From positions 1 to 56,830 of IMG/VR virus record IMGVR_UViG_3300025872_000066: a stretch of 56,830 bases of DNA, one strand, 5' to 3'. The stretch's first letter is position 1; every line of letters starts with the position of its first letter. Source of the stretch: a virus. Under the pieces are notes generated by a model, which did not search any database, was not told the DNA's origin, and saw nothing but the letters and a program-made list of their open reading frames with translations. A program made the translations under genes and the position numbers. Positions 16,181 to 51,324 of the stretch are shown in pieces.

Positions 16181-17172
16181 TATTCATCCTCCAGGGCAGC
16201 GCCAGCCGCAATCGGCGCGAGTAGTCCGTACTGGCGGAGGATGCGGATCTTGTCCTCGGTGCCGGGGAACATCACGTAGTTGCGGGTGCCAGTTGGCCCG
16301 TAGTTGATTCCCTGCTGCCGCGACAACTGATCCAGATACCGAATGCCCGGGAAGCCGCCGTCGCGAACCGCGTCCGCAACGAGCCTCTTGGACACCTGAT
16401 TTCCAATTTGCTCTGGCATTTTCCACGTTTCGGCGTTCTCGCTGAGCGCATCCTGCAATCTGCCGTAGGCTTGCGATCCAGAGCCGTCAATTTCCAGGAC
16501 ACGGTCAAGCATCGCCACCGGAGGCTCATGCGGAAGCGTGGTGGACATTTTCTGAAAGAACTTTAAGGCGCGTGGCTGCTGTGACAGCGGGGCATCCCAG
16601 TCCAATAGCGATTGCTCCGGGGCGTCAATCGCTACCTCGTACATGTGCCCGCTGTTATGCCCAACAGTCTTTCCAGTGTAGTAGTCCAGGCCAGCGAGCC
16701 TTTCTGCATGCCGGTCCCTGCGCACTCTCAGCTCTGCCATTTCGGCCGGCAACCCTTTTGTGGCATCACTTTCCCAGCCGCCAAGAGAGTTAAACCGCTC
16801 TTGCAATTTCGCGAGACGATCAGAAAGCCTGTCATGTTCCATCTGCGCGAATTGCCGCAAAACGGACTCGTCTTCGCCCATGGCGAGCAAGACGGCGACA
16901 TCTCTGTGCGGAGCGTTGGGGTTTAGGATTTGCCCGTCCGCTACAAGCTGGCCGGACAGCGAATCGCGGTACGACTTGGCTGTCGGCTCCGCCCCTGCGA
17001 AGTACATCCCGTACCCATACGCCTGGGCACCTTCGCCCGTGCCGATCTTGCTTGCGTCGAATCGGTTGAAGCTATGCGGGCTACCGTGATACGCCCGGAT
17101 GTACTTCTGCGGCAGAGGAACGTCAGAGACTAACGCAGCGATGCGTCGGCCCAGCTTATCGGCGGCAGGCAT
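16180..17172 (-). CDS. ADP-ribosyltransferase-like (ART-PolyVal) effector, 330 aa
   Basis: Near the N-terminus YHGSPHSFNRFD is followed by GTGEGAQAYGYGMYFAG and AKSYRD. This is the H...Y pattern of ADP-ribosyltransferases of the PolyVal class described in phage and plasmid polyvalent proteins. The middle is a charged coiled-coil-like region; the C-terminus has RYLDQLSRQQG and NYVMFPGTEDKIRIL, also typical of these proteins. The enzymes move ADP-ribose from NAD to a host target and are usually injected with the DNA. It is the first gene of the late block; ATG 17172 has GGGAG at good spacing. Confidence 0.75.
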   Translation of the reverse strand: MPAADKLGRRIAALVSDVPLPQKYIRAYHGSPHSFNRFDASKIGTGEGAQAYGYGMYFAGAEPTAKSYRDSLSGQLVADGQILNPNAPHRDVAVLLAMGEDESVLRQFAQMEHDRLSDRLAKLQERFNSLGGWESDATKGLPAEMAELRVRRDRHAERLAGLDYYTGKTVGHNSGHMYEVAIDAPEQSLLDWDAPLSQQPRALKFFQKMSTTLPHEPPVAMLDRVLEIDGSGSQAYGRLQDALSENAETWKMPEQIGNQVSKRLVADAVRDGGFPGIRYLDQLSRQQGINYGPTGTRNYVMFPGTEDKIRILRQYGLLAPIAAGAALEDE

Positions 17173-17241: not shown

Positions 17242-18258
17242 GTAGTGGCTACCGTGATGTCATGCACAGTGCCGGCGGGTCGGTGACCTCCGATTCCCGG
17301 GGCCTCATATCGTTGCCCAAGCGGCGTGTTTCGTAGCCGACACGCAAGCAGCACCAGGTTGTCGCAAACGTCTTCGCCCCGGTGATACGAACCAGTGTCC
17401 AGCCGGGCCACGTGGCGCTTCAGATTGGCTGTGTTCTCGGTGGGGGAGGGGTGTCAGCGGGCCATATGGCACTTAGAGGGCGGAAAATATCCGGGGGCGG
17501 GATTGACAACCCAGTCGCGAAGCGACTGGGGGGAGAGGGGGCTTCCGAGCGATAGCGAGGAAGCCACCGACAAAACCGCCGAGCATCTGCGACAGCAGAT
17601 GCGAGGCGGCGCCGATACTGCTCCGGTGTACACTGCCGCCAACGGCCTCGGCCGCAAGCCGTTGTCGGGCCTCGGGTTAGGTGTCCGCTACGGTTTGGAT
17701 GCCGGATCGGCCATCGTCCGGCCTGCCGCTGTGGTGCGGCTGGTTCTCTGTGGTGTGCGGTGGTGCCCGGGCGGCGGCGGCGGTCGCGGCCGGGTCGCGT
17801 GGGCCGTGCATTGCCCCTCGGCCTCCCTCCCTCCCGGCCGCGTGGACCAGGCGGCGAGCGTCGCGGGCGGTGCGTCGGCCTGGTGCCGGGCGTCGCGGGC
17901 GTGTGCGGTGCGGCAGGTCTTTGTAGCGTCGGGCGTCTGCCATTCCCCGGGGCCGTGCGCGTCCGCTCGGGCCCATGCTGTTGGATCGTCACCGCGGCCG
18001 CGGATCACCCGCGGCCGTTGGCTGGCTCCATCGGTCCTCCCTTGGTTAGTGGTGCGGCCGGATCGCGACCGCCGGTTGTGGTGTACGGTAGCCGCCGGGG
18101 TTGGCTGTCCCCCGGCGGCGTGTGGCGCCGCTGCCGGTTGCAAGCCGGAGCGGCGGATGCGGCCTGACGGCTGGCCGGGGTCGCGGTGCGCGCTACCCTC
18201 GCCCGGTGCCGTACCCGTGTCGGGTTCGCCCCTGCCGGGGCTGTGGCCGTGTGCGGTT
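17242..18258. other. GC-rich segment without a convincing gene (1.0 kb)
   Basis: All frames are open for long stretches because stop codons are rare in this very GC-rich DNA, yet none has a good start and protein-like composition. Two details may matter on the minus strand. One frame (17411 down to 17130) reads less like a shadow (GSYHRGEDVCDNLVLLACR) but runs through the terminator and into the first late gene. A strong ribosome site (GGGAGGACCG, then ATG 18031) leads only into an 8-codon frame ending at 18005, with a GTG overlapping that stop and an open frame to 17688. The remainder is dense in hairpins. Confidence 0.5.
17510..17740. ncRNA. Candidate structured RNA: array of six consecutive stem-loops
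   Basis: Successive perfect inverted repeats: CCCAGTCGC/GCGACTGGG (17510-17530), GGCTTCC/GGAAGCC (17540-17565), GCATCTGC/GCAGATGC with a four-base loop (17583-17602), AACGGC/GCCGTT (17641-17663), GCCGGA/TCCGGC (17701-17722) and GCCGC/GCGGC (17725-17740). A further strong hairpin, CGCCGCT-G-CCGG against CCGG-AGCGGCG, is at 18126-18155. Hairpins alone do not tell the strand. A leader or stand-alone noncoding RNA is possible, but GC-rich DNA gives chance stems, so confidence is modest. Confidence 0.35.
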
Positions 18259-18298
18259 GCCCGGGCGGCGGCGCGTGGTCGCTGCCTGCCGCCCGGGC
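18259..18298 (-). terminator. Strong GC hairpin just after the sigma-like gene
   Basis: An 11-bp perfect inverted repeat (GCCCGGGCGGC / GCCGCCCGGGC) with an 18-base loop starts 6 bases after the stop codon at 18305. There is no T-run on the minus strand, so it may act as a T-less terminator or as a 3' stabiliser of the mRNA. Confidence 0.45.
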
Positions 18299-18304
18299 TT
18301 GCCC

Positions 18305-18979
18305 TCATCGGGCGTAATAGGCTGCTACCTGCTGCCGGTACGCTGTGAGGTTCTCACCCGTGAGGGGTTCGGCCTGCACGGCTGCGGCCGGTCGCGGGTC
18401 CGTGTCCCGGTGCAAGCCTCGGCACCCCCTGGCCGGTGGCGTGTAGCCCGGGCCAAGGTCCGTCACGCTGGGGACGGTGTTGGGTTCGTCCCCTTCGCCC
18501 CAGCCGGTGACGGCGTCGCGGACCCATGCTTCGATCCTCGCCCGGCGGCGCGTGGCCACTGGGGACGGGATCACTGGGCCGGCGGCGCTTTCGATGGCTG
18601 CGGCGATTGCATCGGGCCCGGGGCGTCCTGAGACGTCCCGCACCATCAACGGCTCTGCGGCGGGCTGGGCCTCCTGCTGGCCGGTGCGGCGGCGGCGGCG
18701 GGCGTGGCGGTGCCCCTCCTTCGTCATGCTGCCGATGCCGTAGCGCTTGGCGGTGGCGATCCGCCAAGCCACCGCTACCCGTGGGGTGGCGGGGCTGCGG
18801 TCCTTCCATTGCCGGGTCAGGAGGTCCACTAGAACCTCCTGGGCGATCTCGCCTGCCCGGTCGCGGTCTACCCCATGCGTCACCAGCCACCCGACCAAGC
18901 GGCGGCGGGCCTGCTGCCAGTCGGCGGCGGTGGCGGCGGGGAAGTTCAAACCCTCACGGGCGGGGATGGTGGCATACAT
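18305..18979 (-). CDS. Sigma-factor-like regulatory protein, 224 aa
   Basis: ATG 18979 is chosen for its GGAGGA site 8 bases upstream, although the frame opens at 19018. Residues of about 15-75 (RRRLVGWLVTHGVDRDRAGE, IAQEVLVDLLTRQ, VAWRIATAKRYG) resemble region 2 of ECF-type sigma factors. A very basic stretch (HARRRRRTG) and a low-complexity Ala/Pro/Arg C-terminal half follow, with no clear region 4. It could redirect or modulate host RNA polymerase; a DNA-binding regulator of another type is the alternative. It has its own promoter at 19029-19058. Confidence 0.45.
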   Translation of the reverse strand: MYATIPAREGLNFPAATAADWQQARRRLVGWLVTHGVDRDRAGEIAQEVLVDLLTRQWKDRSPATPRVAVAWRIATAKRYGIGSMTKEGHRHARRRRRTGQQEAQPAAEPLMVRDVSGRPGPDAIAAAIESAAGPVIPSPVATRRRARIEAWVRDAVTGWGEGDEPNTVPSVTDLGPGYTPPARGCRGLHRDTDPRPAAAVQAEPLTGENLTAYRQQVAAYYAR

Positions 18980-19028
18980 GGTATCGGTCCTCCGTTGGTT
19001 GTGCCGGTGTGTCAGCACCGGTGAGGGG

Positions 19029-19058
19029 ATTGTAAGGCAGTCCCCGGGGGCGTGTCAA
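19029..19058 (-). promoter_or_regulatory. Sigma-70-type promoter for the sigma-like gene
   Basis: Minus strand: TTGACA (19058-19053), an 18-base spacer, then TACAAT (19034-19029), matching the consensus at 6/6 and 5/6 positions. The spacer contains a CCCCCGGGG palindrome, and an arm complementary to it lies at 19067-19077, so a repressor site may overlap the promoter. Transcription would start near 19021, about 40 bases before ATG 18979. Confidence 0.6.
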
Positions 19059-19089
19059 GTACATCGTCCCCCGGGGCTGTGTGACTGTA

Positions 19090-19302
19090 TCAAACCTGCC
19101 GCATGGTACGGGTGATCACCTGCCCGTTATCCGCAGTGTACCGGGCGTGGAGCGTCGTTCCACGGCGGCGGCCGACAACCTGCCAGCGGGCTGCCGTCAC
19201 TCGGACGGCGGCGTCGATGTTCATCACCCGATGGCGGTGCATGTCAGTGACCACCCGGCCGCGAGGGCCGCGGTAATCGGCGGTGAGTTCAACTGTCCAC
19301 AT
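19090..19302 (-). CDS. Small basic beta-rich protein, 70 aa
   Basis: ATG 19302 (MWTVELTADYRG) follows AGGAGA by 7 bases; the longer frame to 19383 has no site. The protein alternates charged and hydrophobic residues (VELTADYRG, VRVTAARWQVVGRRRG), suggesting a small beta barrel able to bind nucleic acid. No recognised family. Confidence 0.6.
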   Translation of the reverse strand: MWTVELTADYRGPRGRVVTDMHRHRVMNIDAAVRVTAARWQVVGRRRGTTLHARYTADNGQVITRTMRQV

Positions 19303-19379
19303 AGGGCAGTCTCCTGGATGGGGAAGGAATGAAGCCGGAGCCGCCCCCGTGCGGCGTGGCACGGGGGCGGGTGCCGGAC

Positions 19380-19583
19380 TCACGCCTTGACGAAGGCGGT
19401 GAGGCCGACCTTGACAACCTGCCCGTCGACCGTGATCGGCGTCGGCTGGTTGCCGTGGGTGCTGGCGACGATCTTCGTCTTCCCGGTGGACGAGAGCGGC
19501 GGGTTCGCGTTCACCGGGATTCGGACGACCAGCGTCGCGGGCTGCGTCTTGGTGGCGGGTTCCAGGGTGTAGGTGGCGGACAT
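19380..19583 (-). CDS. Hypothetical protein, 67 aa
   Basis: ATG 19583 (MSATYTLEPATK) has GGAG 7 bases upstream in an AACGGAG context shared with the sigma-like gene's leader. It is Thr/Val/Pro-rich and probably beta-stranded, with a conserved-looking end VDGQVVKVGLTAFVKA. Function unknown. It is the first gene of the short leftward group that faces the rightward early operon. Confidence 0.55.
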   Translation of the reverse strand: MSATYTLEPATKTQPATLVVRIPVNANPPLSSTGKTKIVASTHGNQPTPITVDGQVVKVGLTAFVKA

Positions 19584-19801
19584 GGTAGGGCTCCGTTGGT
19601 TGCCCGGGTCGCTGGGCGGCGGGCGGGCCGTTCGTCGGCTCGCCACCTACTAGCCGGGACCGGGGCCGCGAGATTTTCCGGTTTTTTGGCGGCGCCGGTC
19701 CCGGCTTATTAAGTCGGCGGTTCGCGCCGCCGTCGCGGCCGGTTTTCCGGCCGTTTTCCCCTGGTTTTCCCGCTGAAAACAGGGGTTTTCCCAGTGTAGA
19801 C

Positions 19802-19838
19802 TGTACGGCTGTTCACCTCCCCGGTGGACGGCCGTACA
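19802..19838. repeat. Long imperfect inverted repeat (operator-like)
   Basis: TGTACGGC and GCCGTACA form an 8-bp outer stem. After one mismatch, GTTCACC pairs with GGTGGAC (one G-T wobble) around a five-base centre. The dyad spans 37 bases in the control region ahead of the early operon, suiting a dimeric repressor or an RNA hairpin near the transcript start. Confidence 0.6.
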
Positions 19839-19864
19839 CCACCGCCGGCTCCCCGCCGGCCGGT

Positions 19865-19941
19865 GACGGGTGCGGGCAGCGATGGGGCTGCCTGGACCGT
19901 GCGGACAGCGGTGTTGCTCACAGGACCGTGCGGACAGCGGT
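19865..19941. repeat. 29-bp tandem repeats upstream of the early operon
   Basis: GGACCGTGCGGACAGCGGT occurs exactly at 19894-19912 and again at 19923-19941, a 29-base period. The preceding 29 bases (19865-19893) match the first full copy at about 19 of 29 positions, making a degenerate third unit. Such phased repeats usually bind a repressor, activator or replication initiator. Confidence 0.7.
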
Positions 19942-19962
19942 CACACCACAACGGAGAGTGTC

Positions 19963-20847
19963 ATGGCTTACAAAATTGCGACAATCCTGCAGGACGGTGA
20001 CAACAATGCGAAGATCCGACACCATGGAGATGAGTACAAGGTCTATGGGATCTCCCTGGCATCGTCTGACTCCTCTGGGTTCAACTCCTGCCCACGGGCT
20101 CTGAGGCGGTCTGTCCTGCAGGAGATGCTGGACAATGGGATGGATATCCAGGAGATCGGGCAGTGGGCCAATCGCAGGGGGCTCTCCCTGTGTTCTGGCC
20201 CCTGTGTGACCTGGGAGGCAGGCCACGGGCAGTCGGACTTCGTCAGGGATGCACGCATCAACCTGACCAAGTGGCTGTATGAGAACCCCAGGTCATTCGG
20301 AGCCTACCTCCGGCGTGACATGGACCGGGTGGAGCGGAACCGCGGTGACTACATCGTCGCTGCCCGCACCAACATCGACAGTGACGTCAACTGGCTGTCA
20401 CTGTTTCCCTGGATGTACGACTACAACTGGCGGTTCTGGGACTACACCAAATGCTCTGAGCGTCTGGGCAAGACCCCCAGTAACTATCACCTGACCTACA
20501 GTTACAACGACGGCACACAGGCCAAGGACTGGGAGCGTGTGTATCGCACCAAGTCCAACGTGGCAGTGGTGTTTGACACCGTGTGGAACCCGTGGGGTAG
20601 CGAGTTTGGCTACCTCCCCGCCACCTGGACTGACCCCAACGGGAAGGTCTGGCCTGTGGTGGACGGTGACCGGCTGGAACTGCGGTTCCTGGACCCGGTG
20701 GATGTGTGTGTCGGCCTGCGGCTGAAGGCTGCCGGCGACAAGCGTGAAGATGCGTGCGAGTCGGAGTTTGCAGTGCCGACCGGCATTGACCAGGTGGGGA
20801 ACGTACACCCCGCCGATGCTGAGCCCGGCCACTACCTGGCAGCGTGA
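19963..20847 (+). CDS. Early protein of unknown function, 294 aa
   Basis: First gene of the rightward operon; ATG 19963 is preceded by GGAGAG. Largest early protein of its group, soluble, rich in Trp, Asp and Arg. Islands include IGQWANRRGLSLCSGPCVTW (paired cysteines), FGAYLRRDMDRVERNRGDY and WLSLFPWMYDYNWRFWDYTK. I recognise no catalytic motif. Being first behind the control repeats, it is likely made earliest and could act in host takeover. Confidence 0.7.
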   Translation: MAYKIATILQDGDNNAKIRHHGDEYKVYGISLASSDSSGFNSCPRALRRSVLQEMLDNGMDIQEIGQWANRRGLSLCSGPCVTWEAGHGQSDFVRDARINLTKWLYENPRSFGAYLRRDMDRVERNRGDYIVAARTNIDSDVNWLSLFPWMYDYNWRFWDYTKCSERLGKTPSNYHLTYSYNDGTQAKDWERVYRTKSNVAVVFDTVWNPWGSEFGYLPATWTDPNGKVWPVVDGDRLELRFLDPVDVCVGLRLKAAGDKREDACESEFAVPTGIDQVGNVHPADAEPGHYLAA

Positions 20848-29157: not shown

Positions 29158-29221
29158 CCTGCTGTCGGCGGCGTTCTTCTGGACCATCATCCTGTTCCTG
29201 TGCTACCGGAGGCAGCCATGA
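29150..29221 (+). CDS. Membrane micro-peptide, 23 aa
   Basis: ATG 29150 with AAGGAG and AGGTG upstream encodes SSLLSAAFFWTIILFLCYRR-type sequence, essentially one transmembrane helix with a basic end. It overlaps the previous gene by 8 bases and the recombinase start by ATGA. Coupling on both sides supports translation; function unknown. Confidence 0.4.
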   Translation: MSSLLSAAFFWTIILFLCYRRQP

Positions 29222-29976
29222 AACTGTGGGGATACGTGCGAGTCAGCACCGATGACCAGCAGAACTCCGTGGCCAACCAGCAGGAGTTGATCCGCGACTA
29301 CGCCCGCAAGGCTGGCGTGATCGCCTGCATCTGCGTAGACGAGGACGTCACCGGCAAGTCTCCTCTGCGGAACCGGCCGCAGGGGAGACTGCTGTGGGAC
29401 GGGCTGAACCCTGGCGACACGGTGGTGTTCGCTAAGCATGACCGGGCGTTCCGGTCCCTGCGAGATGCTGCGGACACCGTTCACATCTGGCAGGAGCGTG
29501 GCGTCAGGGCCGTGTTTTTGAACCTCGGCCTGGACCTGGGCCGCCCCGAAGGCAGGTTGTTTTTCCACCAGTTGGCTTCGTTCGCTGAGTTTGAGCGTGA
29601 GCTGATTTCGCAGCGAGTCCGCGACTGCTTCGCTTACCTGAAGCAGCACAACCGCTGCCACGGGAACCGGCCTTTCGGGTGGACGAAGGACCGGCCTGGC
29701 AAGGGCGCTTACCTGATTCCGCTGGAGTCGGAGCGTGAGCTGGGCCAGCGTGTTTGCGGGCTGCACGCTGACGGGATGAGCTACCGGCAGATTGCGATGC
29801 TGCTCCTGGAGGAGCGGGTGACGAAGCCGGGGAAGCGGTCGATAGATCAGAAGGGCGGGATCTACAGTGTGTCGGACGTTCACGCTCTGTCTCTGGCGAC
29901 TCAGCAGGGATTCCCAGCCGTAGCGAGATCGTCCTTGCGAGTCGGCGGCTCGCCAGTGCAGCCGTCCGGATGTTGA
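29218..29976 (+). CDS. Serine recombinase/resolvase
   Basis: 252 residues from ATG 29218 (GGAGG upstream). Catalytic domain: GYVRVSTDDQQ with nucleophile Ser10, the KHDRAFRS arginine motif near 75-80, and the FAEFERELISQRV E-helix. A short DNA-binding tail includes GMSYRQIAMLLLEERV. It breaks and rejoins DNA by strand exchange, as in resolution, inversion or integration. It is shorter than large serine integrases, so a resolvase or invertase role fits better. The last 70 bases overlap the convergent sigma-like gene on the other strand. Confidence 0.85.
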   Translation: MKLWGYVRVSTDDQQNSVANQQELIRDYARKAGVIACICVDEDVTGKSPLRNRPQGRLLWDGLNPGDTVVFAKHDRAFRSLRDAADTVHIWQERGVRAVFLNLGLDLGRPEGRLFFHQLASFAEFERELISQRVRDCFAYLKQHNRCHGNRPFGWTKDRPGKGAYLIPLESERELGQRVCGLHADGMSYRQIAMLLLEERVTKPGKRSIDQKGGIYSVSDVHALSLATQQGFPAVARSSLRVGGSPVQPSGC

Positions 29977-30415
29977 TGGCGAACTCCTCCGACAGATCCA
30001 CCAGCCGCTTCTTCTCTACGAAGCGGTAGACCGCCATCTGCTGGTCGCGCTCTGGCATGCCGGCGATGGCGTCCTGGAGGTGGTCGATGGCGTCTTCATG
30101 GGCGAACGCCGCCTCGGCATCTTCCAGGGAGATCCGCTCCCCAGGCGTACGGGTCAGCCGCCTGATCGACTTTAGCATCGCGTTCAGGATAGCCCGGGCG
30201 AAATACTTCTTGGGGTAGGGCAACTTCGCCGGGTCGTACGTGCGGGCGGCACGGCACAGGGCCAGGAACCCCTCGCCCTCTAGGTCCGGGATGTACAGCG
30301 ACCGCTGCCAGCCAGGCCGGTTCTGGACGAAGTACCTGGCCACCTGCGTGACCATCTCTGAGTATTCAGCGACGAGCTGCTGTTGCCGCTTGGAGAGCCG
30401 TGATCGCCCGCTCAT
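29504..30415 (-). CDS. Sigma-70-family-like factor
   Basis: ATG 30415 (MSGRSRLSKRQQQ). Residues of about 40-90 (YIPDLEGEGFLALCRAARTY, then YFARAILNAMLKSIRR) match sigma region 2. Residues 115-170 (MPERDQQMAVYRFVEKKR, SEEFAINIRTAALASRRLAR) match region 4 with its helix-turn-helix. The convincing part ends near 29905. The frame then lacks a stop and runs to 29504 antisense to the recombinase, where it is low-complexity Ser/Ala/Arg, so the real C-terminus is uncertain. It may direct host RNA polymerase to late phage promoters. Confidence 0.65.
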   Translation of the reverse strand: MSGRSRLSKRQQQLVAEYSEMVTQVARYFVQNRPGWQRSLYIPDLEGEGFLALCRAARTYDPAKLPYPKKYFARAILNAMLKSIRRLTRTPGERISLEDAEAAFAHEDAIDHLQDAIAGMPERDQQMAVYRFVEKKRLVDLSEEFAINIRTAALASRRLARTISLRLGIPAESPETERERPTHCRSRPSDLSTASPASSPAPPGAASQSAGSSSRQRAARKHAGPAHAPTPAESGKRPCQAGPSSTRKAGSRGSGCAASGKRSSRGLAAKSAHAQTQRTKPTGGKTTCLRGGPGPGRGSKTRP

Positions 30416-30566
30416 GTCGTTCCAACTGGACCTGGGTCTGATGCACCAGTTCCGGGAGCCCTTCCATGGCATGTGCGATCATCGTCACCTTCGCGTGCAT
30501 GCTCATGGCCCAGGGAACCACCGCCACCAAGACGGTGATGCCTATCAGTACCTGGTCAGTCGTCAT
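30366..30566 (-). CDS. Membrane-anchored coiled-coil protein, 66 aa (holin/spanin-like)
   Basis: ATG 30566 follows GGAGGGG. A hydrophobic segment (VLIGITVLVAVVPWAMSM) near residues 6-23 is followed by a helix ending VQLERHERAITALQAAT. The N-terminal anchor plus coiled coil is typical of small lysis or holin-associated proteins. It is near the end of the protease-rich cassette. The start overlaps the upstream gene and its end overlaps the sigma-like gene. Confidence 0.55.
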   Translation of the reverse strand: MTTDQVLIGITVLVAVVPWAMSMHAKVTMIAHAMEGLPELVHQTQVQLERHERAITALQAATAARR

Positions 30567-30756
30567 CAATCCCCTCCGCGATCAGCTCTAGCAAACCGCC
30601 GGCCGCCTCGTCCGGCAACGAACCTGCCCGTACGTCGGCCATGATCTTTCTCACGGCAGACCGCCACTGACCAGGGGGGAATTGGTAGATCCACGTGTGC
30701 CCAAAACCCTGGGCCTTCACCCGGACTATGGTTTTGGGCATCGTCCATCGGGGCAT
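30556..30756 (-). CDS. Hypothetical protein, 66 aa
   Basis: ATG 30756 (MPRWTMPKTIVRV) has GGAGAGG upstream; the longer frame to 30840 lacks a site. Beta strand (IVRVKAQGFGHTWIYQF), then a helix with SAVRKIMADVRAGSLPDEAA. Unrecognised. Confidence 0.5.
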   Translation of the reverse strand: MPRWTMPKTIVRVKAQGFGHTWIYQFPPGQWRSAVRKIMADVRAGSLPDEAAGGLLELIAEGIDDD

Positions 30757-30959
30757 GCTGCCCTCTCCGTGCAACTGCAGTCCGTCCAATGCTGTCCATC
30801 TCCCGTGCGAACCTTGCCGGTGCCACTGCACTTCACGCACTTGGGGTCGGCAGGCTTGGGCGGAGCGGGGGATGGGCTCGCCTGCTCGGCATCCAGCGCA
30901 GCGTGGATGGCGATGACGGCAACGTAGTGCGGGGTGTACTCGTTCCAGTAGAGCGGCAT
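30726..30959 (-). CDS. Zinc-ribbon (CxxCxGxGKV) protein, 77 aa
   Basis: ATG 30959 overlaps the upstream stop. CVKCSGTGKVRTGDGQHW followed by CSC is a DnaJ-type cysteine ribbon of the kind found in many short phage proteins; the C-terminus adds CPDGRC. The N-terminal 35 residues (MPLYWNEYTPHYVAVI) may form a helix or membrane-proximal segment. Metal-binding adaptor, role unknown. Confidence 0.6.
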   Translation of the reverse strand: MPLYWNEYTPHYVAVIAIHAALDAEQASPSPAPPKPADPKCVKCSGTGKVRTGDGQHWTDCSCTERAACPDGRCPKP

Positions 30960-31897
30960 CAGATTCTCCCTATGCTACCCAGGTCAGGCAGCGGGCGGGC
31001 AGGGTAGCCCTGGACGTCGGAGTACGCCCAGATGTCTTCGCTCTCCACGCACGTGGCGTAGCCGGCATCGTCAGTGACGATCATGCCGGGGATCTGCTCG
31101 GGGTAGATCGATGGCCAGTCCTTGACCGGCTGGTTCCACCGCCCCCAGCTATTGGCTATGAACCAGACCCGGAACGGCCAGAACTCCTTTGTGTCGTCAT
31201 AGCCCACGGTGGCCATATCATGGGCCCATCCCGGGCTGACACGCGGGTGGATGTTCTTGCTGCTTGGCCTGTCGGACCAGGCTGCCATCTGCCCAGAGTG
31301 GATGCCGTACCCGTTGAACAGGGCATCCATGGCATCGTCCATGGTGCGGACAAGGGCGATGGTCCCCACCTTGTTGCGGTTGCACAGGTCCAGCACCGCC
31401 TTGGGGACGCCTGTCGATCCCCACCTGGCACCCAGGGCACCGTTGTAGACCGACAGATCCACCACGCCATCGAACTTCTGGCGTGCCAGGAAGCCCGTGT
31501 CGCGCTCAAACCTGGCCGCCCGGGCCGGGCTCATGCCTGCACCGGAGTGACCGCGGGCCCCGTACGTGGGCTCCGTGGCGGTGCGGACAACCCACTCCTC
31601 GGGCTTGCCCTTCAGCAGGATCGACACGGCGCGGCTGCAATCCCTGGCGTTCCGGCTCCCATGTGAGACACAGTCGCCTTCTGTCTGTTTTTCGCTGAAC
31701 GCACCTGGGTCCAGCTGCCGCACGTATCCCCAGAGCATGGCACGCTTCCCTTTCCCACTGCCAGGCGACTGGAACGAACGCAGCGGGTTCGTCTCCAGGA
31801 ACTCCATCTTCTCCCGTGGGCTCGGCACGTAGCCGGCCAGGCCGCCAAACTGGTAGGCCCGCACCAGCTCTTCTGTGCTGTCGAAGTCACCTGGCAT
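30959..31897 (-). CDS. Papain-like cysteine peptidase, 312 aa
   Basis: Residues 71-76 (QTEGDC) supply a Gln and nucleophile Cys76. GWAHDMATVGYDD places His226, and WFIANSWGRW places Asn249 in the canonical N-S-W-G of C1 peptidases, with Cys-His-Asn in the correct order. No signal peptide or obvious propeptide is visible. Phage lysins include some CHAP/papain-like peptidases, but the NSWG arrangement here is of classical C1 type. Located among small membrane-protein genes, it is a candidate lytic enzyme or a virion/host processing protease. Confidence 0.7.
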   Translation of the reverse strand: MPGDFDSTEELVRAYQFGGLAGYVPSPREKMEFLETNPLRSFQSPGSGKGKRAMLWGYVRQLDPGAFSEKQTEGDCVSHGSRNARDCSRAVSILLKGKPEEWVVRTATEPTYGARGHSGAGMSPARAARFERDTGFLARQKFDGVVDLSVYNGALGARWGSTGVPKAVLDLCNRNKVGTIALVRTMDDAMDALFNGYGIHSGQMAAWSDRPSSKNIHPRVSPGWAHDMATVGYDDTKEFWPFRVWFIANSWGRWNQPVKDWPSIYPEQIPGMIVTDDAGYATCVESEDIWAYSDVQGYPARPLPDLGSIGRI

Positions 31898-32300
31898 CAG
31901 CGGCCACCTTCTGCAATGCCTTCACCAGGGCAGCCCGCTTGTTCGTCTCGCCGTCCAGGCCGGTGTTGTCCTTGCCAACCGCGGCCACCAGCTCGTCATC
32001 GATGGCCACATCCAGGCCGATGTACTTGCCGGGGAGGTCAGTCCCCTTGAAGGCCTCGTCCAGGCTTGTGGCATGCACCCGGCGGAACCCATCCATGGTG
32101 GTGATCGACTTGCTGCGGGACACCACATCCGCCATGGCATCGTAGAACGATGACACCCGCGTGCGATCCGCCTTGGTGGCTGGCCGCAGGGCCATGCCCA
32201 CCTTCGACACGGCGGCCGGAGGGGCGGGCTTGGGGACCTCGGGCATGAACGCCCAGATCAGGCCGACTGCCGCCAGGGCCGCGAAGACATGCTTCATCAT
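31887..32300 (-). CDS. Exported or membrane-anchored protein, 137 aa
   Basis: ATG 32300 (or ATG 32297) overlaps the upstream stop. MMKHVFAALAAVGLIWAFMP is a signal or anchor segment without a lipobox Cys, followed by a Pro-rich linker (EVPKPAPPAAV) and a charged soluble domain. Likely periplasmic or envelope-facing, part of the lysis-like cassette. Confidence 0.6.
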   Translation of the reverse strand: MMKHVFAALAAVGLIWAFMPEVPKPAPPAAVSKVGMALRPATKADRTRVSSFYDAMADVVSRSKSITTMDGFRRVHATSLDEAFKGTDLPGKYIGLDVAIDDELVAAVGKDNTGLDGETNKRAALVKALQKVAADAR

Positions 32301-32509
32301 TTGATTCCCAGCAGGGCCTCCATCAGGGCGTTGCATGCCTGCGTCACCTCGGGCGTGCGGTACGAGTCGCGCACGGCAATGACGTTGCGGATATGGGTCA
32401 GCAGGACAGGGGCCCGGCTTCCCTGAAAGGCCCACTGGACCAGCGGCCAGAGGTACATCACCGCCACGCCAGCGGCTGACAACAGTGCCACAATCTGAGT
32501 TGCCGTCAT
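32297..32509 (-). CDS. Holin-like small membrane protein, 70 aa
   Basis: ATG 32509 overlaps the stop of the subtilisin-like gene as ATGA, with AGGGTG upstream. An N-terminal hydrophobic helix (IVALLSAAGVAVMYLWPLVQ) precedes an amphipathic C-terminal part. One clear helix and a possible second weak one fit a class II/III holin or antiholin; the call is positional. Confidence 0.5.
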   Translation of the reverse strand: MTATQIVALLSAAGVAVMYLWPLVQWAFQGSRAPVLLTHIRNVIAVRDSYRTPEVTQACNALMEALLGIK

Positions 32510-33393
32510 ACGATCACCCTGCATCCGTTCCCAACCAGGCTGGTTGGATTGATTAAGCCCCACCCGTACATGCCGTCCTTGCCAGGATCCCCGGCATCCG
32601 TGGACGTCTCTCGGAGAATCTTGCTGGCCTTCTGCGCCAGGCCAGCCGTGCCGCACTTGCCGGCGTGCAACGCCAGGACGCCGGCCACAAACGGGGCGGC
32701 CATGCTTGTGCCAGAGAGGGTGGCGTACTTGCCACCCAGCCAGGCGCTGGTGATCTGATAGCCAGGGGCGGCAACGGCAATCTCACGCCCGCGGCAGCTG
32801 AACTCGCAGACCTGCCCATCCTGGTCCACGGCCCCAACGGCGATCACGCTGCCGTATGCCGCTGGGTAGTTGACACTGCCGCCGTCATTCCCAGCGGCGC
32901 AGACAACCGCAATACCCTGCTCTGCGGCATTGGCGCATGCCTCCTGCAGATACGGCACGCTGACAGGGCAGCCCAGGCTCATCACAATGATGTTGGCCTT
33001 GGCTTCAATGGCGGCATGGATCGCCTGCGTCACGTGCTGCAGTGATCCGGCGCCGTTGTTGTTTAGGACCTTGAACGACAGCAGCTCCGCCTGGGGAGCC
33101 ACGCCACGCATCGAACCCCTGCCGGCCAGGACGCCCGCCACATGGGTCCCGTGGCCGTTGGTGTCGTAAGGGCTGCAGTCGGTGGTGAAGTTGCGATGCT
33201 CCTTCACGGCACCCTCCATGGCCGGATGGCCGGGCTCTATTCCGGAATCCAGGATCGCCACCCGCACCCCGGCCCCCTGGTGCTGACTCCAGAGGGCCGG
33301 GATGCCGTACGCGGAGAGCGACCAGTCCACGCCGGAGGAGGGGAGGGCGTGTGCGACTGCCTCTACACGGTACGGTGGGAGGTGGCCGATCAC
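32506..33393 (-). CDS. Subtilisin-like serine protease (S8), 295 aa
   Basis: GTG 33393 overlaps the upstream stop (GTGA); the frame to 33690 is a shadow of that gene. All subtilase motifs are present: VAILDSG (Asp49), NGHGTHVAG (His81), AAGND oxyanion Asn169 and LSGTSMAAPF (Ser230). The protein is a compact catalytic domain with a short N-terminus and no long propeptide or signal peptide. Subtilases are rare in phages. With a holin-like gene coupled downstream, it could digest a proteinaceous envelope during lysis, or process virion proteins. Confidence 0.85.
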   Translation of the reverse strand: MIGHLPPYRVEAVAHALPSSGVDWSLSAYGIPALWSQHQGAGVRVAILDSGIEPGHPAMEGAVKEHRNFTTDCSPYDTNGHGTHVAGVLAGRGSMRGVAPQAELLSFKVLNNNGAGSLQHVTQAIHAAIEAKANIIVMSLGCPVSVPYLQEACANAAEQGIAVVCAAGNDGGSVNYPAAYGSVIAVGAVDQDGQVCEFSCRGREIAVAAPGYQITSAWLGGKYATLSGTSMAAPFVAGVLALHAGKCGTAGLAQKASKILRETSTDAGDPGKDGMYGWGLINPTSLVGNGCRVIV

Positions 33394-33716
33394 TTCTGGT
33401 TGCGCCTGGCGATGAAGACCTGGATGAGCGTCGAAACGATGGGCGCGACCACCGTCAGGAGAATCGGAATCGGGATCCCGTACTCCGCCTGGGCAGTGGC
33501 CATGACCTCGTCCTGCTCCTCGGCCGACAGGGCCTGGGCCTGGAACAGCGGGAAGGTTTCGATCACCGGCAGGACCGCCTTGGCGATCAGGTAAACGATC
33601 TCCAGCTTCTGCGAGAGGCTGAGACTGTCGCTCCAGCCGGCGACGATGTTGGCGATCTCCTTCAACACCGTGGTGTTGGACAGGAGCCACCGGACGATCA
33701 GGAACTTGTCAGTCAT
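33390..33716 (-). CDS. Tail-anchored membrane protein, 108 aa
   Basis: ATG 33716. Helical N-terminal half (LLSNTTVLKEIANIVAGWSD), possible membrane-interacting segment (LIAKAVLPVIETFPLF) and a C-terminal hydrophobic helix (ILLTVVAPIVSTLIQVFIA) followed by RRNQK. Coupled to the subtilase by GTGA. Probable part of the lysis machinery. Confidence 0.6.
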   Translation of the reverse strand: MTDKFLIVRWLLSNTTVLKEIANIVAGWSDSLSLSQKLEIVYLIAKAVLPVIETFPLFQAQALSAEEQDEVMATAQAEYGIPIPILLTVVAPIVSTLIQVFIARRNQK

Positions 33717-34089
33717 TTAGGGGCTCCTTGCGCCGTTCACAGGCAATAGCGACCACCGCATGGCCGGCGATGTCCATGAGGGTCTTCTGTCTAGTAATTG
33801 TCTCCAGCGGCCCCCTTAGCCGGCGGGTTTTCTCTCCGATCCTGGCCGTCTGGTACTGCCAGGCCGGGATGCCGTCCTGCTCCACGCCCAGGGCGTTTTC
33901 CAGGGGGTCTTCCTTGCACCCGTAATAGCTCCGCTTCCTGGTCAGGAGGCGGTACAGCTCGTCGCAAATCTCCCGGTAGGGGTCACCACTGATACTCCCT
34001 GCTGGCTCCGACAATGCGTCCGTATTCGGCCCAAAAGACGCTGTGATGGGGGTCTTCTTCCCGATCACACAGATACGCGGTTCTTGCAT
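33709..34089 (-). CDS. DUF1599/Nmad1-like nucleotide-associated protein, 126 aa
   Basis: ATG 34089 with GAGGAG 7 bases upstream. The core ELYRLLTRKRSYYGCKEDPL, RIGEKTRRLRG and LMDIAGHAVVAIAC has the order of the DUF1599 family: YG near an acidic patch, then K-x-x-R-L, then DIAxYAxxA. This family (nucleotide-modification-associated domain 1) occurs in phages with modified DNA bases and in nucleotide-pool genes. It would act on nucleotides in the cytoplasm; identity is by eye only. Confidence 0.55.
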   Translation of the reverse strand: MQEPRICVIGKKTPITASFGPNTDALSEPAGSISGDPYREICDELYRLLTRKRSYYGCKEDPLENALGVEQDGIPAWQYQTARIGEKTRRLRGPLETITRQKTLMDIAGHAVVAIACERRKEPLND

Positions 34090-34321
34090 GTGCCCACTCC
34101 TCACAGCATGTGTCTAAAAAACTATCCCGTGTCAGCGTGTTACTAATGACAATGAGCCCACGCATCTCATCCTCGTTGAACTCAAAGTACCCCAGCATCC
34201 CCGGCAGCTTGGCCGGGGGTCGCAGGTAGACTCTCACCGGATACGGCAGTGGGAAGTTCGCCTGTGCCCAGCGCCGAAAGCGCTTGAGCAGCCGCGGCCT
34301 CCAGTCTGGCGTGGAACTCAT
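33983..34321 (-). CDS. SprT/WLM-like protein with altered metal motif, 112 aa
   Basis: DTCCEEWAHARTAYL, then HHSVFWAEYGRIVGA, matches the plan of phage metallopeptidase-like proteins in which HEWAHA binds zinc and a later H...FW..YG follows. Here the first His is Glu (EEWAH), so the site is probably altered or inactive. ATG 34321 has AGAGG upstream. It overlaps both neighbours (140 and 107 bases), an unusually long double overlap. Confidence 0.5.
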   Translation of the reverse strand: MSSTPDWRPRLLKRFRRWAQANFPLPYPVRVYLRPPAKLPGMLGYFEFNEDEMRGLIVISNTLTRDSFLDTCCEEWAHARTAYLCDREEDPHHSVFWAEYGRIVGASREYQW

Positions 34322-42439: not shown

Positions 42440-43261
42440 ATGCTACTCACTGACTTTGCGAAACGCTACGCCAACCGCGTAGGGGCTTCTCCAGGCTATT
42501 TGGAGCAGCTTTTGGTGTTCACCAAGCGCCTGGACTGGCAGGTGGAGGAGATCACCACCGAAATGGTGGACTCCTACTTGACTGCCGCTCTGGGGGGTTT
42601 GAGCCCCAATACAGTCGCCAATCACCGCAGACTCCTCACAACCCTCATGCGCGAAGCTAATCGCACCGGCCTGAACACGTGTATAGCGAATGGATTCCGC
42701 CGCGTCAAGGTGCCTAGGCCGATCCCCAGGGCGCTGTCGCATGCGGAGATTCGTCAGGCAGTAGAAGCTGCCCGGCAGACGCCCGGTCATTTCCGTGACC
42801 TCCAAAAGTCCGACTTCCTTGTCGCCTGGTTCTTGACCGCGTATTCGCTAGGCCTGCGTGCGGGCGACCTAGTCGAAATCCGGTGGGATCAAGTACGTGG
42901 GCGGAAAATCTATCTGGGCCAATCGAAGACGTCAACTCCCCATGTCTCGCTTTTTACTGACGAGGCGTTGTGCGCGTGTAAGGCCCTTCCGAAGCGCACG
43001 CGGATCTTTGGGGACTTCGCTGCGCTCAACACAATCCAGCAGTGGGTGAAGGCCTGCATGGTGAGCGCAGGCCTGGATGCGTCAACGAAGTTCCTGCGAC
43101 GCTCAGCCGCGACATATGCCAAGGTCCAGGGCAAGTCGCCCAAGGCGGTGCTGGGGCATTTGACCGAAGGCCTAGCCGAAAGGCACTACGTCGATCAGCT
43201 GCTGTACGAAGAGGAGACTGGCCTGAACCAGGAGCCCCTGCCGTCCGTGATGGGCGCCTAG
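42440..43261 (+). CDS. Tyrosine recombinase/integrase, 273 aa
   Basis: ATG 42440; GGGG 6 bases upstream. N-terminal SAM-like core-binding domain (YLTAALGGLSPNTVANHRRL). Catalytic residues: Arg in YSLGLRAGDLVEIRW, the FLRRSAATYAKVQGKSPKAV block (H-x-x-R is degenerate), and His and Tyr in LGHLTEGLAERHYVD. It integrates or excises phage DNA. It is the only plus-strand gene in this half of the genome, and its stop overlaps that of the convergent virion gene in a CTAG palindrome. Confidence 0.85.
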   Translation: MLLTDFAKRYANRVGASPGYLEQLLVFTKRLDWQVEEITTEMVDSYLTAALGGLSPNTVANHRRLLTTLMREANRTGLNTCIANGFRRVKVPRPIPRALSHAEIRQAVEAARQTPGHFRDLQKSDFLVAWFLTAYSLGLRAGDLVEIRWDQVRGRKIYLGQSKTSTPHVSLFTDEALCACKALPKRTRIFGDFAALNTIQQWVKACMVSAGLDASTKFLRRSAATYAKVQGKSPKAVLGHLTEGLAERHYVDQLLYEEETGLNQEPLPSVMGA

Positions 43262-46200
43262 GCGTAATCGACGCCCAGGATGGCGAGCGGGTCTTCTGCC
43301 TGCTTCTTCTTGTCCCGTGCCCGTTTCGCGGCCTCGGACTGCAAAACGCGGTACAGCAAATACTGCCGCTGCTCGGGCTCGCTGAGGCGGGCGAGGTCCT
43401 CGGGCTTAATGAAGAGGTTCTCGTAGGTGCTGACGCCGGGGGCCGCATCCAGCAGTTGGTTCAGCGTGGTGCGTGCCGCCAGCCGCAGCGTCTTGTCCTG
43501 GTCAACGTCCTGGAACTTCATGCCAGTCAGCGTGTTGAACGCTAGCTTGGCGGCACGCTCTGCAGGGCTGATGCGGTTGTCGCGGAGCTGACGCATCAGG
43601 CCTAGGACCCGCGAGCCGCCCGGGGCGTTGACGGCGATCTGCTCGGCCATCCGCCCCCAAGAGCCAAGGTAGGGGCTCAGTGATCCCAGGTCATGCTCCA
43701 GCATGCTGTAGAGGTCACTGAGCTGCCGGCCGCTATAGAACTGCCGGTTCAGCACGCTCTCTAGCGGGCCCTTCAGGAGCGGGTTCGCCTGGCCCAGGAT
43801 GTTGGACCCGGTCTTCATCAGCGAGTCAGACACACGCTGGGCGACGTTGTTTCCAATGCCAGGCGTAAACAGGTTCAGCAGCGACTCATGCGGCAGGTCG
43901 ATGTTGGTAAGGAACCGCTGCACGCCAGGGGTCTTGACGCCGAAGATAGAAGAGGCATCGACAGGGATCGCAGCCGACTGCCGCAGGTACTCTGGCGTGA
44001 ACTGGTCCTCGCTCGGCTCGCTGCCGCGGTTGATCGCCCGCATCGACTGGCCCGTCAGGCCATACGGCCGCTCCACCAGCTCCTTGGCGACGAACGGGGT
44101 GATGCCCTTCTGGAAACGATAGAACGGAAAAATCTTGGTGAGGAAGTCGCGCTCAAAGGATGTGAAGTTCTCCGGCCCGTACAGCACCTGCGTTAGGTCG
44201 GTGAGCGCCTTCGCAGCCTCGGGGCTGTCGCCCTTGCGGACGCGGTTCAGGAACGTGCCCAGACGATTGCCAGCGTCAGTGAATGATGCAGCCCGGTCGC
44301 TGAGGTCCAGCAGGAAGTTGGGGTTGCTCGTCCGGCCGCGAGTAGCAAACGGGTTCCAGGTCTGCCAGGAGAGCCATGGCTTGTCGCGGACGTTCCGGAA
44401 CAGCCCGCCGGCCGCCCCAGGGAACGCCTCGTTCATTTGCAGGTTTGTTGCCTGCCGGCCCAGGTCATCTGCCACGGTGCCGGACGTCAGCCCCTGGCCA
44501 CCGGCCGCCTTCAGGAACTTGCGGGCCCGGGCCTCAGCCAGCTGCTCTTCAGTGACGAGCGTATAGCCAGCCGGAAGCGATGCACCGGGCTTGCCGACAA
44601 CAACGTCGCCTGGGAAGAGGTCTTCGACCCTGTACCCCTTGGCGTTCTGCAGTCGCTTAGACAGGCCGGCATAGTCGCCGCCAGCAACACGGGCGCCGGT
44701 CAACCAGTCAGTCGGGCTGAACCCATCCCGGGTCGCACTAGCAAAGGCCCCTGAATAGGCATCACGTAAATGGCGTGCCGGGCTCGCCAAGGCTAACGTC
44801 TTAAATGAGTCGGTGAAGTTCTGGAAGTTCTTCAGCAACCCCTCGGCCTCGCGGGGCGTGCGGGCGGTGACCATCCGCTCGTTGAGCCGGTCCACTAGGT
44901 CCTTGCTCATCGACATGCGTGAGAGCGTGTCGGCGTCCCTGCCCATGCGATTGGCCAGCGACTGTACTGCGTCCTCCGTAAAGCCAAGGGCCTTGAGGGC
45001 GTCAGGCAATGCGATGTGCGTCCCGCCCGGAACGCTCTCGGCCATCTGCAGCAGGACGTCATAGCCGCCCCGCTTGAAGTCGTCGGAAATGAAATCCAGC
45101 AGCGAGTTGGCGTTCGCACGCATGCGACCGCGGTTCATTAAATAGGACGAGAAGTCGTTGAGGCTGTTGCCGAACTTCGGGATCCCCTGCTCGGCTGCCT
45201 GGAGCGGCGTGCGGCGAAGGCTGTCGGCCAGGCCAACGTACATGTCCTGCGTCCGCTTCAGCAGCTCGTCGCCCTCAAACTGATCCGCCAGAAAGCCGAA
45301 TGGACCTCCGGCAGGATTCCAGTCCGGGACGTTGCGTGCCAGCCAGTCATCGATCACGCCTGGGGCGTTGTCGGCAAACCACTCGGCGTTGGTGGCTTCC
45401 CTGAGACGCTTCTGCAGTGCCGGGTCTTGGGCCATCTTGTCCAGCACCCACGCCGGGAAAGCGCGGTTGTAGTCACGCCGGGATGCCGTGCCGCCTTCGC
45501 GGACGCCGCCAATCGCAGACCCCTTGCGGCTCCGGTTCACCTTGGGCTGATAGCCATCGGCGTACCGCGGGCGGTCGATCTCTGCCTGCTGGCGAGGGAA
45601 CCAGAAGATGTCGTTGGGGAGGTTTTCCTTTTCCAGAGGAATCCCCAGTTCCTTGGCGCGTGCCAGTTCGTCGTCCATCCGCTGACGCATCCACATCAGC
45701 AGGTTGCGGCCCCCATCTGACTGCAGGGCTCGCATGATTTCCGGATCGGTTACCTGCGACGTCTGGTTCTCTAAAACGTCGCGAACGGCCTTGGCGAACT
45801 CTGGCTTGCGGATGATGTTGTCTGGAATGTCGAACGCCGCATCCACCATGTTGTCGGCAATGTCCTGCCGAACGCGGGCCAGCTCTCGCCGCTGACCCTC
45901 GGTAATGCGGCGGGCGATGTACTGCCCCTTCTCGTCCGTGAAGCCCATAACCCTAGGGTCGAAGATCGCCTGGGCACCGCGGACCACCGGACCAAGGACC
46001 GGAGCGGCACGGGCGTAGTCTCCCAGCTTGTCGCTGGTCTTCGCCAGCCAGTCGCCGGCCGTCTTTCCGTAGAGGTCAGCAGAGCCTTCAACCATGCCCG
46101 GGATGGAGATTCGGTTAGTGCGAGCGAGCGGCTGGCCAAGAAGCTCCTCGGCCGCAGCGCCGGCGTACTCCTCCCACTTGGCCTTGGCAGCCGCCTGCTC

Positions 46201-46794
46201 GGCGGCGTCACCCGCCATGTCGATCAGCGTCTGCGGGGTGGACTCGCGGAGAAACTGGGCCGTGCCCATGTTCTTCTGCTTGGCCAGGAGTCCGATATCG
46301 CCGGCCATGAGCCCGGCCTTCTCGGCGGTCTTTGCGGCGGCCGTCTTGGCCCCGCGACCCAGCAGGCCGATGCCGACGTAACTGAGGGGGTCCAGGGCGA
46401 TCTCGGCCAGCATGCCACCCGCGAAGTTTCTCCAATTGTCCTCAGAGCCCGTCAGGCCGTATTGGCGGGCCAGTTCCCGGCCGGTGACTCTTTGTTCACT
46501 ATCTTCCCAGAGGGCCGACAGGGCCTTCCCAGGGCCTCCAGAGAGCAGTCCGCGGACAACGGCCCCGGGAGTGTCTAGAGCCCAGCCGAATAAGGAGAGG
46601 CCAGACGAGCCAGCGTTGGCAAGCTGGCGAAGGAGGGTGGTCTTCTCTTCTTCCGGGAGGAGGTCGGCTACCTGGGGCTGCCGTTTGCGGATCGGGATCA
46701 CGCCAAGGATATCGGCGTCGCCCATGGGCGTTCCGATTCGCTGGCGGATCTCCCCCTCTGGGTCGTAGATGTCAAAGAGGGGCGAGAGTGCCAT
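43258..46794 (-). CDS. Large internal virion/ejection protein, 1178 aa
   Basis: Ala/Gly/Arg-rich and mainly helical, with repeated hydrophobic segments such as GGMLAEIALDPLSYVGIGLL and VVRGLLSGGPGKALSALW near the N-terminus, long helical middle parts (EGQRRELARVRQDIADNMVD), and a C-terminus with REAEGLLKNFQNFTDSFKTL and LAILGVDYA. Size and position at the end of the late block match core proteins ejected into the host in podoviruses. The central SPARHLRDAYSGAFASA is also seen in such proteins. No enzyme motif recognised. Confidence 0.65.
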   Translation of the reverse strand: MALSPLFDIYDPEGEIRQRIGTPMGDADILGVIPIRKRQPQVADLLPEEEKTTLLRQLANAGSSGLSLFGWALDTPGAVVRGLLSGGPGKALSALWEDSEQRVTGRELARQYGLTGSEDNWRNFAGGMLAEIALDPLSYVGIGLLGRGAKTAAAKTAEKAGLMAGDIGLLAKQKNMGTAQFLRESTPQTLIDMAGDAAEQAAAKAKWEEYAGAAAEELLGQPLARTNRISIPGMVEGSADLYGKTAGDWLAKTSDKLGDYARAAPVLGPVVRGAQAIFDPRVMGFTDEKGQYIARRITEGQRRELARVRQDIADNMVDAAFDIPDNIIRKPEFAKAVRDVLENQTSQVTDPEIMRALQSDGGRNLLMWMRQRMDDELARAKELGIPLEKENLPNDIFWFPRQQAEIDRPRYADGYQPKVNRSRKGSAIGGVREGGTASRRDYNRAFPAWVLDKMAQDPALQKRLREATNAEWFADNAPGVIDDWLARNVPDWNPAGGPFGFLADQFEGDELLKRTQDMYVGLADSLRRTPLQAAEQGIPKFGNSLNDFSSYLMNRGRMRANANSLLDFISDDFKRGGYDVLLQMAESVPGGTHIALPDALKALGFTEDAVQSLANRMGRDADTLSRMSMSKDLVDRLNERMVTARTPREAEGLLKNFQNFTDSFKTLALASPARHLRDAYSGAFASATRDGFSPTDWLTGARVAGGDYAGLSKRLQNAKGYRVEDLFPGDVVVGKPGASLPAGYTLVTEEQLAEARARKFLKAAGGQGLTSGTVADDLGRQATNLQMNEAFPGAAGGLFRNVRDKPWLSWQTWNPFATRGRTSNPNFLLDLSDRAASFTDAGNRLGTFLNRVRKGDSPEAAKALTDLTQVLYGPENFTSFERDFLTKIFPFYRFQKGITPFVAKELVERPYGLTGQSMRAINRGSEPSEDQFTPEYLRQSAAIPVDASSIFGVKTPGVQRFLTNIDLPHESLLNLFTPGIGNNVAQRVSDSLMKTGSNILGQANPLLKGPLESVLNRQFYSGRQLSDLYSMLEHDLGSLSPYLGSWGRMAEQIAVNAPGGSRVLGLMRQLRDNRISPAERAAKLAFNTLTGMKFQDVDQDKTLRLAARTTLNQLLDAAPGVSTYENLFIKPEDLARLSEPEQRQYLLYRVLQSEAAKRARDKKKQAEDPLAILGVDYA

Positions 46795-51274: not shown

Positions 51275-51324
51275 GTGTTTTTCTCCTACCCATTAATGCC
51301 CAAGACCGGGAAATCGCTGCACGG

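Follow-up and report, generated by a model that had tools for sequence, protein, structure and literature searches.

How do the phages of planctomycetes leave their host cells? We know of no described lysis enzyme for these phages, little work on them was found in the open literature searched, and seven common murein-hydrolase families are all but missing from the three planctomycete genomes tested. The question is raised here by a virus record of 56,830 bases (IMG/VR IMGVR_UViG_3300025872_000066), analyzed whole and called the window below. A first-pass annotation had drawn attention to a cassette in which a subtilisin-like and a papain-like protease are interleaved with small membrane proteins, and it had proposed that lysis, or entry, depends on digesting a proteinaceous envelope. 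We give an even chance to the reading that the papain gene, its exported partner, and its membrane neighbors form a lysis module of planctomycete phages, to which this podovirus lineage would have added a subtilase resembling the intracellular subtilisin proteases (ISPs).

The papain-type enzyme and its operon

The papain-like peptidase (31897-30959, minus strand, 312 aa) carries the predicted Cys76, His226, and Asn249. C76 and H226 are invariant (39/39 sequences), Q71 is kept in 38/39, and N249 is kept in 36/39, with Q in the remaining 3; Q, C, and H are also invariant across 22 divergent homologues. The Pfam C1 model (PF00112) gave no significant match (E = 0.26; 11.8 bits, with the cut-off at 20.7), a cut-off that is a library threshold and not a structural criterion, and we describe the enzyme as a divergent C1-fold family. 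Significant matches to this family are absent from Pfam, PHROGs, and NCBIfam, and its profile found no match in the PDB by sequence, so that a fold comparison was required. An AlphaFold model from 7 sequences was rejected (pLDDT 34); the model used, from 33 sequences, has a papain fold (pLDDT 84, pTM 0.85). Foldseek matched it to procathepsin B at an E value of 4.5e-8, and VIA matched it to xylellain (PDB 3ois) with a Z score of 20.6 and a root mean square deviation of 2.8 over 229 residues. The top matches listed are C1 peptidases, with C1 cathepsins and xylellain at Z scores of 17 to 21; no CHAP or NlpC/P60 chain is among the 50 matches listed, which is not evidence against such kinship. The predicted fold therefore confirms a call that the first-pass annotation had made from sequence where Pfam failed, and the Gln-Cys-His-Asn set together with the modeled papain fold places the enzyme among the C1 peptidases.

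Xylellain-type C1A genes have been reported in Myoviridae and Siphoviridae (PMC10380794). Xylellain-type peptidases share the papain fold and the Gln-Cys-His-Asn residues with the window enzyme, but the latter is ~16% identical to xylellain, falls below the Pfam C1 cut-off, has no PHROG or NCBIfam match, and lies within a cassette of membrane proteins. The alignment with mature papains starts at about residue 49, which puts residues 1 to 48 in the place of a pro-region. The window enzyme has no cell-wall-binding domain and neither a signal peptide nor an N-terminal signal anchor, which sets it apart from signal anchor (SAR) endolysins. Library searches placed it in no known peptidoglycan-hydrolase family, and it would therefore work like a known endolysin type rather than be one.

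All features named in the first-pass annotation were found in place, every gene lying on the minus strand. The cassette (33716-30366) consists of six tightly overlapping genes followed by a membrane coiled coil; it is listed here in the order of transcription, with the sigma factor that ends the operon (TM, transmembrane segment).

33390..33716, minus strand: hydrophobic-tailed protein, 108 aa; C-terminal hydrophobic segment at residues 85-103
32506..33393, minus strand: predicted S8 subtilase of intracellular-subtilisin type, 295 aa, GTG start; triad D49/H81/S230
32297..32509, minus strand: one-TM protein, 70 aa; N-terminal TM
31887..32300, minus strand: signal-anchored exported protein, 137 aa, by topology and profile homologues
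30959..31897, minus strand: predicted C1 papain-fold cysteine peptidase, 312 aa; Q71/C76/H226/N249; candidate lysis enzyme
30726..30959, minus strand: Cys-rich protein, 77 aa; CxxCxGxG, a DnaJ zinc-finger-like motif
30556..30840, minus strand: small soluble protein, start codon uncertain; kept in the nearest relatives
30366..30566, minus strand: protein with N-terminal TM and coiled coil, 66 aa; family-conserved
29504..30472, minus strand: sigma-70/ECF-type sigma factor (TIGR02937, 45.3 bits, cut-off 42.9)

The stop codon of the 108-aa gene overlaps the subtilase start (GTGA at 33393), the subtilase stop overlaps the start of the one-TM gene (ATGA at 32509), and a second ATGA lies at 32300; the papain gene begins in an 11-base overlap at 31897 and ends in a TAATG junction at 30959. 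These overlapping or abutting genes, from 33716 to 30726, fit one translationally coupled operon. The subtilase and papain genes span 2.44 kb, in agreement with the 2.5 kb first given.

Pattern scans of IMG/VR recovered ~30 distinct contigs with the papain gene. In nearly all of those with enough flank, an HNH gene, a PDDEXK nuclease gene, and two small genes precede the cassette, whose order is conserved as hydrophobic-tailed protein, subtilase, one-TM protein, exported protein, papain enzyme, Cys-rich protein, TM coiled coil, and sigma factor. The one-TM and small genes, whose conservation is weak, went undetected in a few contigs; in two (L003 and L006), the 70-aa one-TM gene and the gene after it form a fusion. 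The nonsynonymous rate was below the synonymous rate (dN<dS) in the seven genes examined, wherever both were computable. The small membrane proteins are thus real conserved genes. Their "holin-like" label describes topology; none of those adjoining the enzyme gene matched a holin family in library searches. The 108-aa protein, whose homologue holds the same position in ~30 contigs with dN<dS, had no convincing family match in those searches and is possibly a membrane-acting or holin-type factor. The 66-aa TM coiled coil would be like BhlA or an i-spanin in architecture only.

Homologues, hosts, and active-site inteins

A scan of genomes matched seven assemblies, namely, six planctomycete metagenome-assembled genomes (MAGs; Pirellulaceae, Pirellulales, Planctomycetaceae, and Thermoguttaceae) and one Synechococcaceae MAG on a 3.6-kb contig. 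Of 392 Planctomycetota genomes searched with a profile built from the podoviruses only, 13 have a papain homologue. With a broader profile, full-length members (E below 1e-85) stood clear of generic weak matches (E above 1e-8). Among 292 genomes of the phylum to which the Synechococcaceae MAG belongs, that MAG was the only full-length match, and a cyanobacterial host was rejected. Searches by tblastn with the window enzyme found no match in 50,697 phage records, two distant homologues likewise had none in phage records, and among 72,556 plasmids the window enzyme matched only pPLIM01 of Planctopirus limnophila DSM 3776. The distant homologues sit on complete Planctomycetota chromosomes and on this plasmid. 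The phage therefore probably infects planctomycete bacteria, as the first-pass annotation had suggested.

The distant homologues occur mostly in prophages, next to small membrane proteins. By its gene content, pPLIM01 (L103; NC_014149.1, 1-37010) is a phage-plasmid, encoding TerL, a portal, ClpP, a capsid, a tape measure, ParB, and integrases. Its papain gene (PLIM_RS21800; WP_013112484.1), annotated as hypothetical, is 26% identical to that of the window; it follows PLIM_RS21795, which encodes hydrophobic stretches, a lipobox-like stretch, and a PKD-like part, and precedes genes for a small secreted protein, HNH, TerL, portal, ClpP-type protease, capsid, and tail. Like the papain gene of the window, this divergent homologue stands beside a membrane protein gene, here that of a PKD-like lipoprotein; unlike in the window, the enzyme has an N-terminal membrane segment and there is no subtilase. 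In four other loci (L071, L072, L074, and L081), a terminase-like gene follows the papain gene on the same strand at a distance of 1 to 2.5 kb, and in L076/pPLIM01 the terminase is likewise 1 to 2.5 kb downstream. The terminase call is Pfam-confirmed in L071 and weak in L081, and in L072 and L074 it comes from sequence clustering with L071. In L075 and on the P. limnophila chromosome (L077), the papain gene lies between capsid and tail genes. The latter two loci (L075 in genome G290) are compact head-tail clusters of ~20 kb that include the papain gene, have host-like flanks, and show no evident replication or integration genes, resembling gene transfer agents or defective prophages.

In L046-L049, L071, L072, and L078, the gene just before the papain gene encodes a homologue of the exported protein (profile E values of 1e-11 to 5e-6 at seven distant loci; hhalign, 98%). 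Profile comparison did not support the PKD lipoproteins of L073, L075, and pPLIM01 as further homologues. By eye, seven enzymes (L071, L072, L074, L075, L076, L077, and L079) have an N-terminal hydrophobic segment, which those of the window, L046-L049, L078, L082, and L083 lack. Endolysins are divided in the same way into signal anchor (SAR) and holin-dependent types. Thioredoxin-like neighbors accompany the gene in L071 (Pfam-confirmed), L072, and L074, and in the distant L083 a Cys-rich stretch resembling the protein at 30726 is joined to a redox-like segment. We speculate that such neighbors adjust the redox state of a cysteine enzyme that works outside the membrane.

Both protease genes have also been targets of intein-like inserts. 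In the papain gene of L040 and L043, the insert lies directly before Cys76 (GD, then CFVAGTLVRMGDGTE...AVHN, then CVSH), and in the subtilase gene of L019 it lies directly after the catalytic His-Gly (GHG, then CIAPDDE...IVSN, then THC). The frames are open throughout insert and host protein in all three (L040:4585-6720; L043:4519-6726; L019:3161-5401). Inteins prefer the conserved, functional active sites of important proteins, and their positions therefore give an independent indication that both catalytic centers matter to the phage.

The subtilase

The predicted subtilase (33393-32506, 295 aa) is complete, with the Asp49, His81, and Ser230 first noted, and matches Pfam PF00082 over the whole model (E = 8e-52). 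D49, H81, N169, and S230 are invariant in 34/34 sequences, as are L5-P6-P7-Y8; the Asp/His/Ser triad and the oxyanion Asn place the protein in peptidase family S8. It has an N-terminal HLPPYR motif and no signal peptide or I9 pro-domain. Its best PDB matches by profile (7y6m, 7xr8, 6f9m, 2x8j, and 2wv7) are intracellular subtilisins, which outrank all secreted subtilisins in the search, and the alignment to them begins with LPPYRVEA over LIPYEVKA.

In ISPs, an N-terminal segment with the published motif [LVI]-[IFLV]-P-[YFH] blocks the active site (PMC6220982). The subtilase resembles these enzymes in its catalytic residues, in the absence of a signal peptide, and in the alignment of the LIPY segment, but it is phage encoded, and its L-P-P-Y has Pro for [IFLV] at position 2 in 34/34 sequences; we therefore call it ISP-like and do not file it as an ISP. 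The two proteases had been presented as equal partners. This does not hold, as the papain gene is ancient and widespread, whereas the subtilase is of intracellular type and was found only in this podovirus lineage.

Lysis and the competing readings

A 255-aa LamG-like open reading frame continues in frame across the joined ends of the window, which we therefore treated as a complete, circularly permuted genome; it appears to be a complete circle, and the genomes of relatives measure 56 to 62 kb. Pfam and PHROGs (25 of 28 families listed) revealed no murein hydrolase among its proteins, and six-frame searches with seven Pfam families (phage lysozyme, Amidase_2, SLT, NlpC/P60, M23, CHAP, and GH108) gave nothing above cut-off in the window or in 19 relatives. 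These searches bear out the early observation that the genome has no lysozyme, amidase, or transglycosylase. Similarly, no Pfam murein hydrolase was found among 43 pPLIM01 proteins scanned. Two candidates were discarded: a PHROG endolysin match at 16180-17172 (E = 7e-4), which covers a 50-residue stretch of a 1277-aa model and for which Pfam suggests ART-PolyVal, and, in one of the relatives, a GH108 match that stays below cut-off at 15.5 bits (E = 0.001). The former region (minus strand) encodes a protein of the structural operon with an ADP-ribosyltransferase-like ART-PolyVal domain (Pfam, below cut-off). In the host genomes, the seven-family search gave one Amidase_2 match each in P. limnophila and G290 and none in G346, with no phage lysozyme, SLT, NlpC/P60, M23, CHAP, or GH108 above cut-off in any of the three. 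The near-absence of the seven families from genomes G328, G290, and G346 suggests unusual wall-hydrolase repertoires.

In the mechanism that we propose, the papain enzyme (30959-31897) would fill the endolysin slot. Made in the cytosol with a short pro-like N terminus, it would cross the inner membrane by means of at least one small membrane protein of the operon and would then cleave peptide bonds of the envelope, in either murein peptides or structural envelope proteins. The signal-anchored and Cys-rich proteins would have their place outside the membrane, where they may serve as a partner, an inhibitor, or a redox factor. The subtilase would be a lineage-specific addition, a cytosolic subtilisin locked by its N terminus and unlocked at the end of infection to digest the contents of the host cell or help free the papain enzyme. 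The lysis role, the identity of the holin, the substrate, and the activation are all what we infer. As in lambda-type cassettes and those of SAR endolysins, a small membrane protein gene accompanies the enzyme gene, which lies upstream of the terminase in five relatives, and the homologues exist with and without a signal anchor; unlike in those systems, there is no recognized holin, spanin, or murein hydrolase, and the window enzyme is a predicted C1 peptidase whose gene is not beside the terminase.

Several points weigh against this lysis module. None of the membrane proteins encoded at these loci has a holin or spanin family match; the window cassette lies in a replication-side operon beside a sigma factor, not among late genes; and the nearest folds of the enzyme are proteases, not known murein peptidases. 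The absence of hydrolases rests on family libraries, which a divergent one among the many unknown proteins could escape, and the host assignment of the podovirus itself depends on MAG binning.

A tentative possibility that overlaps with the lysis module is that the enzyme is a peptidoglycan endopeptidase in the manner of CHAP or NlpC/P60 and does not digest proteins; weights for a murein and a protein substrate are not meant to sum to one. The peptidoglycan sacculi of planctomycetes, P. limnophila among them, are sensitive to lysozyme (PMC4432640), and the enzyme may therefore cut murein peptides or else envelope proteins. For the same reason, and with papain-superfamily folds including peptidoglycan peptidases, the appeal to a proteinaceous wall is weak: what survives of the original proposal is a lysis-type module of protease-fold enzymes in a complete genome with no recognizable endolysin, but not its envelope argument. 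Viral fold neighbors include phage proteins labeled "Peptidoglycan binding-like" and "N acetylmuramidase" (by annotation), and mycobacteriophage LysA includes a papain-family domain, N5 (PMC3314691). The latter is likewise a papain-superfamily domain in a phage lysis context, but it is C39-like, part of modular endolysins, and from phages of actinobacterial hosts. Against a murein substrate stand the missing cell-wall-binding domain and the high Z scores to C1 cathepsins and xylellain.

It is unlikely that both proteases act in the cytoplasm (in host shut-off, protein recycling, phage-protein processing, or defense removal) with the membrane genes as unrelated neighbors. Neither window enzyme has a signal peptide, the subtilase is nearest to intracellular subtilisins and keeps its N-terminal LPPY, and the operon also holds replication-side genes and a sigma factor. 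However, the exported-protein neighbor stays with the papain gene across very distant prophages, seven Planctomycetota loci encode an enzyme with an N-terminal membrane segment of its own, the terminase-proximal position recurs, and no other lysis enzyme was found. A cytoplasmic role fits the subtilase better than it fits the papain enzyme.

We consider it very unlikely that the genes are cargo for lysogenic conversion or against competitors, for example, proteases that temperate phages have secreted for scavenging. There is an integrase gene in the phage, and some homologues are membrane anchored with thioredoxin-like neighbors, but the operon is kept whole in all relatives whose flanks are long enough, an unusual pattern for cargo, and the purifying selection and active-site inteins also argue against it. 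Least probable is a virion-associated role in genome entry or capsid maturation, which would suit L075 and L077, where the gene stands between those for head and tail, but the window and its relatives carry the papain gene outside the virion operon (the first-pass option of entry likewise finds no support, both genes being outside that operon in this genome), head maturation proteases of the ClpP/S49 type are already present in pPLIM01 and L073, and signal anchors are unfit for a virion protein.

Elsewhere in the window, Pfam and PHROGs recognize portal, capsid, terminase, and some large virion proteins, and by gene order 43258-56226 looks like the podovirus tail and internal-protein region. 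At 18000-20000, where two gene orientations meet, the GC content is 70% (~60 to 66% elsewhere) with a strong AT skew, a possible origin or control region. The sigma factor gene (29504-30472, minus strand) and a serine resolvase gene (29200-29976, plus strand) are antisense and tail to tail, sharing ~470 bases, an arrangement that recurs in relatives. A conserved small protein at 33983-34321 (minus strand) has the motif EEWAHA...DPHH..FWAE.GRI, metallopeptidase-like by eye and with no Pfam match. At 117,778 bases, one contig (L039; IMGVR_UViG_3300049595_001870) is roughly double the usual genome length of 59 kb, and its cassette equals that of L038 in coordinates and identities, so that it is possibly a concatemer assembly.

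Papain-superfamily domains are already known in endolysins as CHAP and NlpC/P60. What we did not find in the literature and libraries searched is a C1-type family with active-site inteins and an ISP-like partner that recurs in lysis-like settings of planctomycete phages unrelated to one another. We regard as doubtful the full claim that unrelated planctomycete phages share lysis by a true papain-type protease in place of a murein hydrolase, a protease that a holin or its own signal anchor would export and that is paired in the podovirus with a latent subtilisin. If it were true, host exit by proteolysis, not by cleavage of murein sugars or amides, would amount to a lysis principle new among tailed phages, and the presence of the papain gene on a 37-kb phage-plasmid of the cultured Planctopirus limnophila makes the question directly testable.

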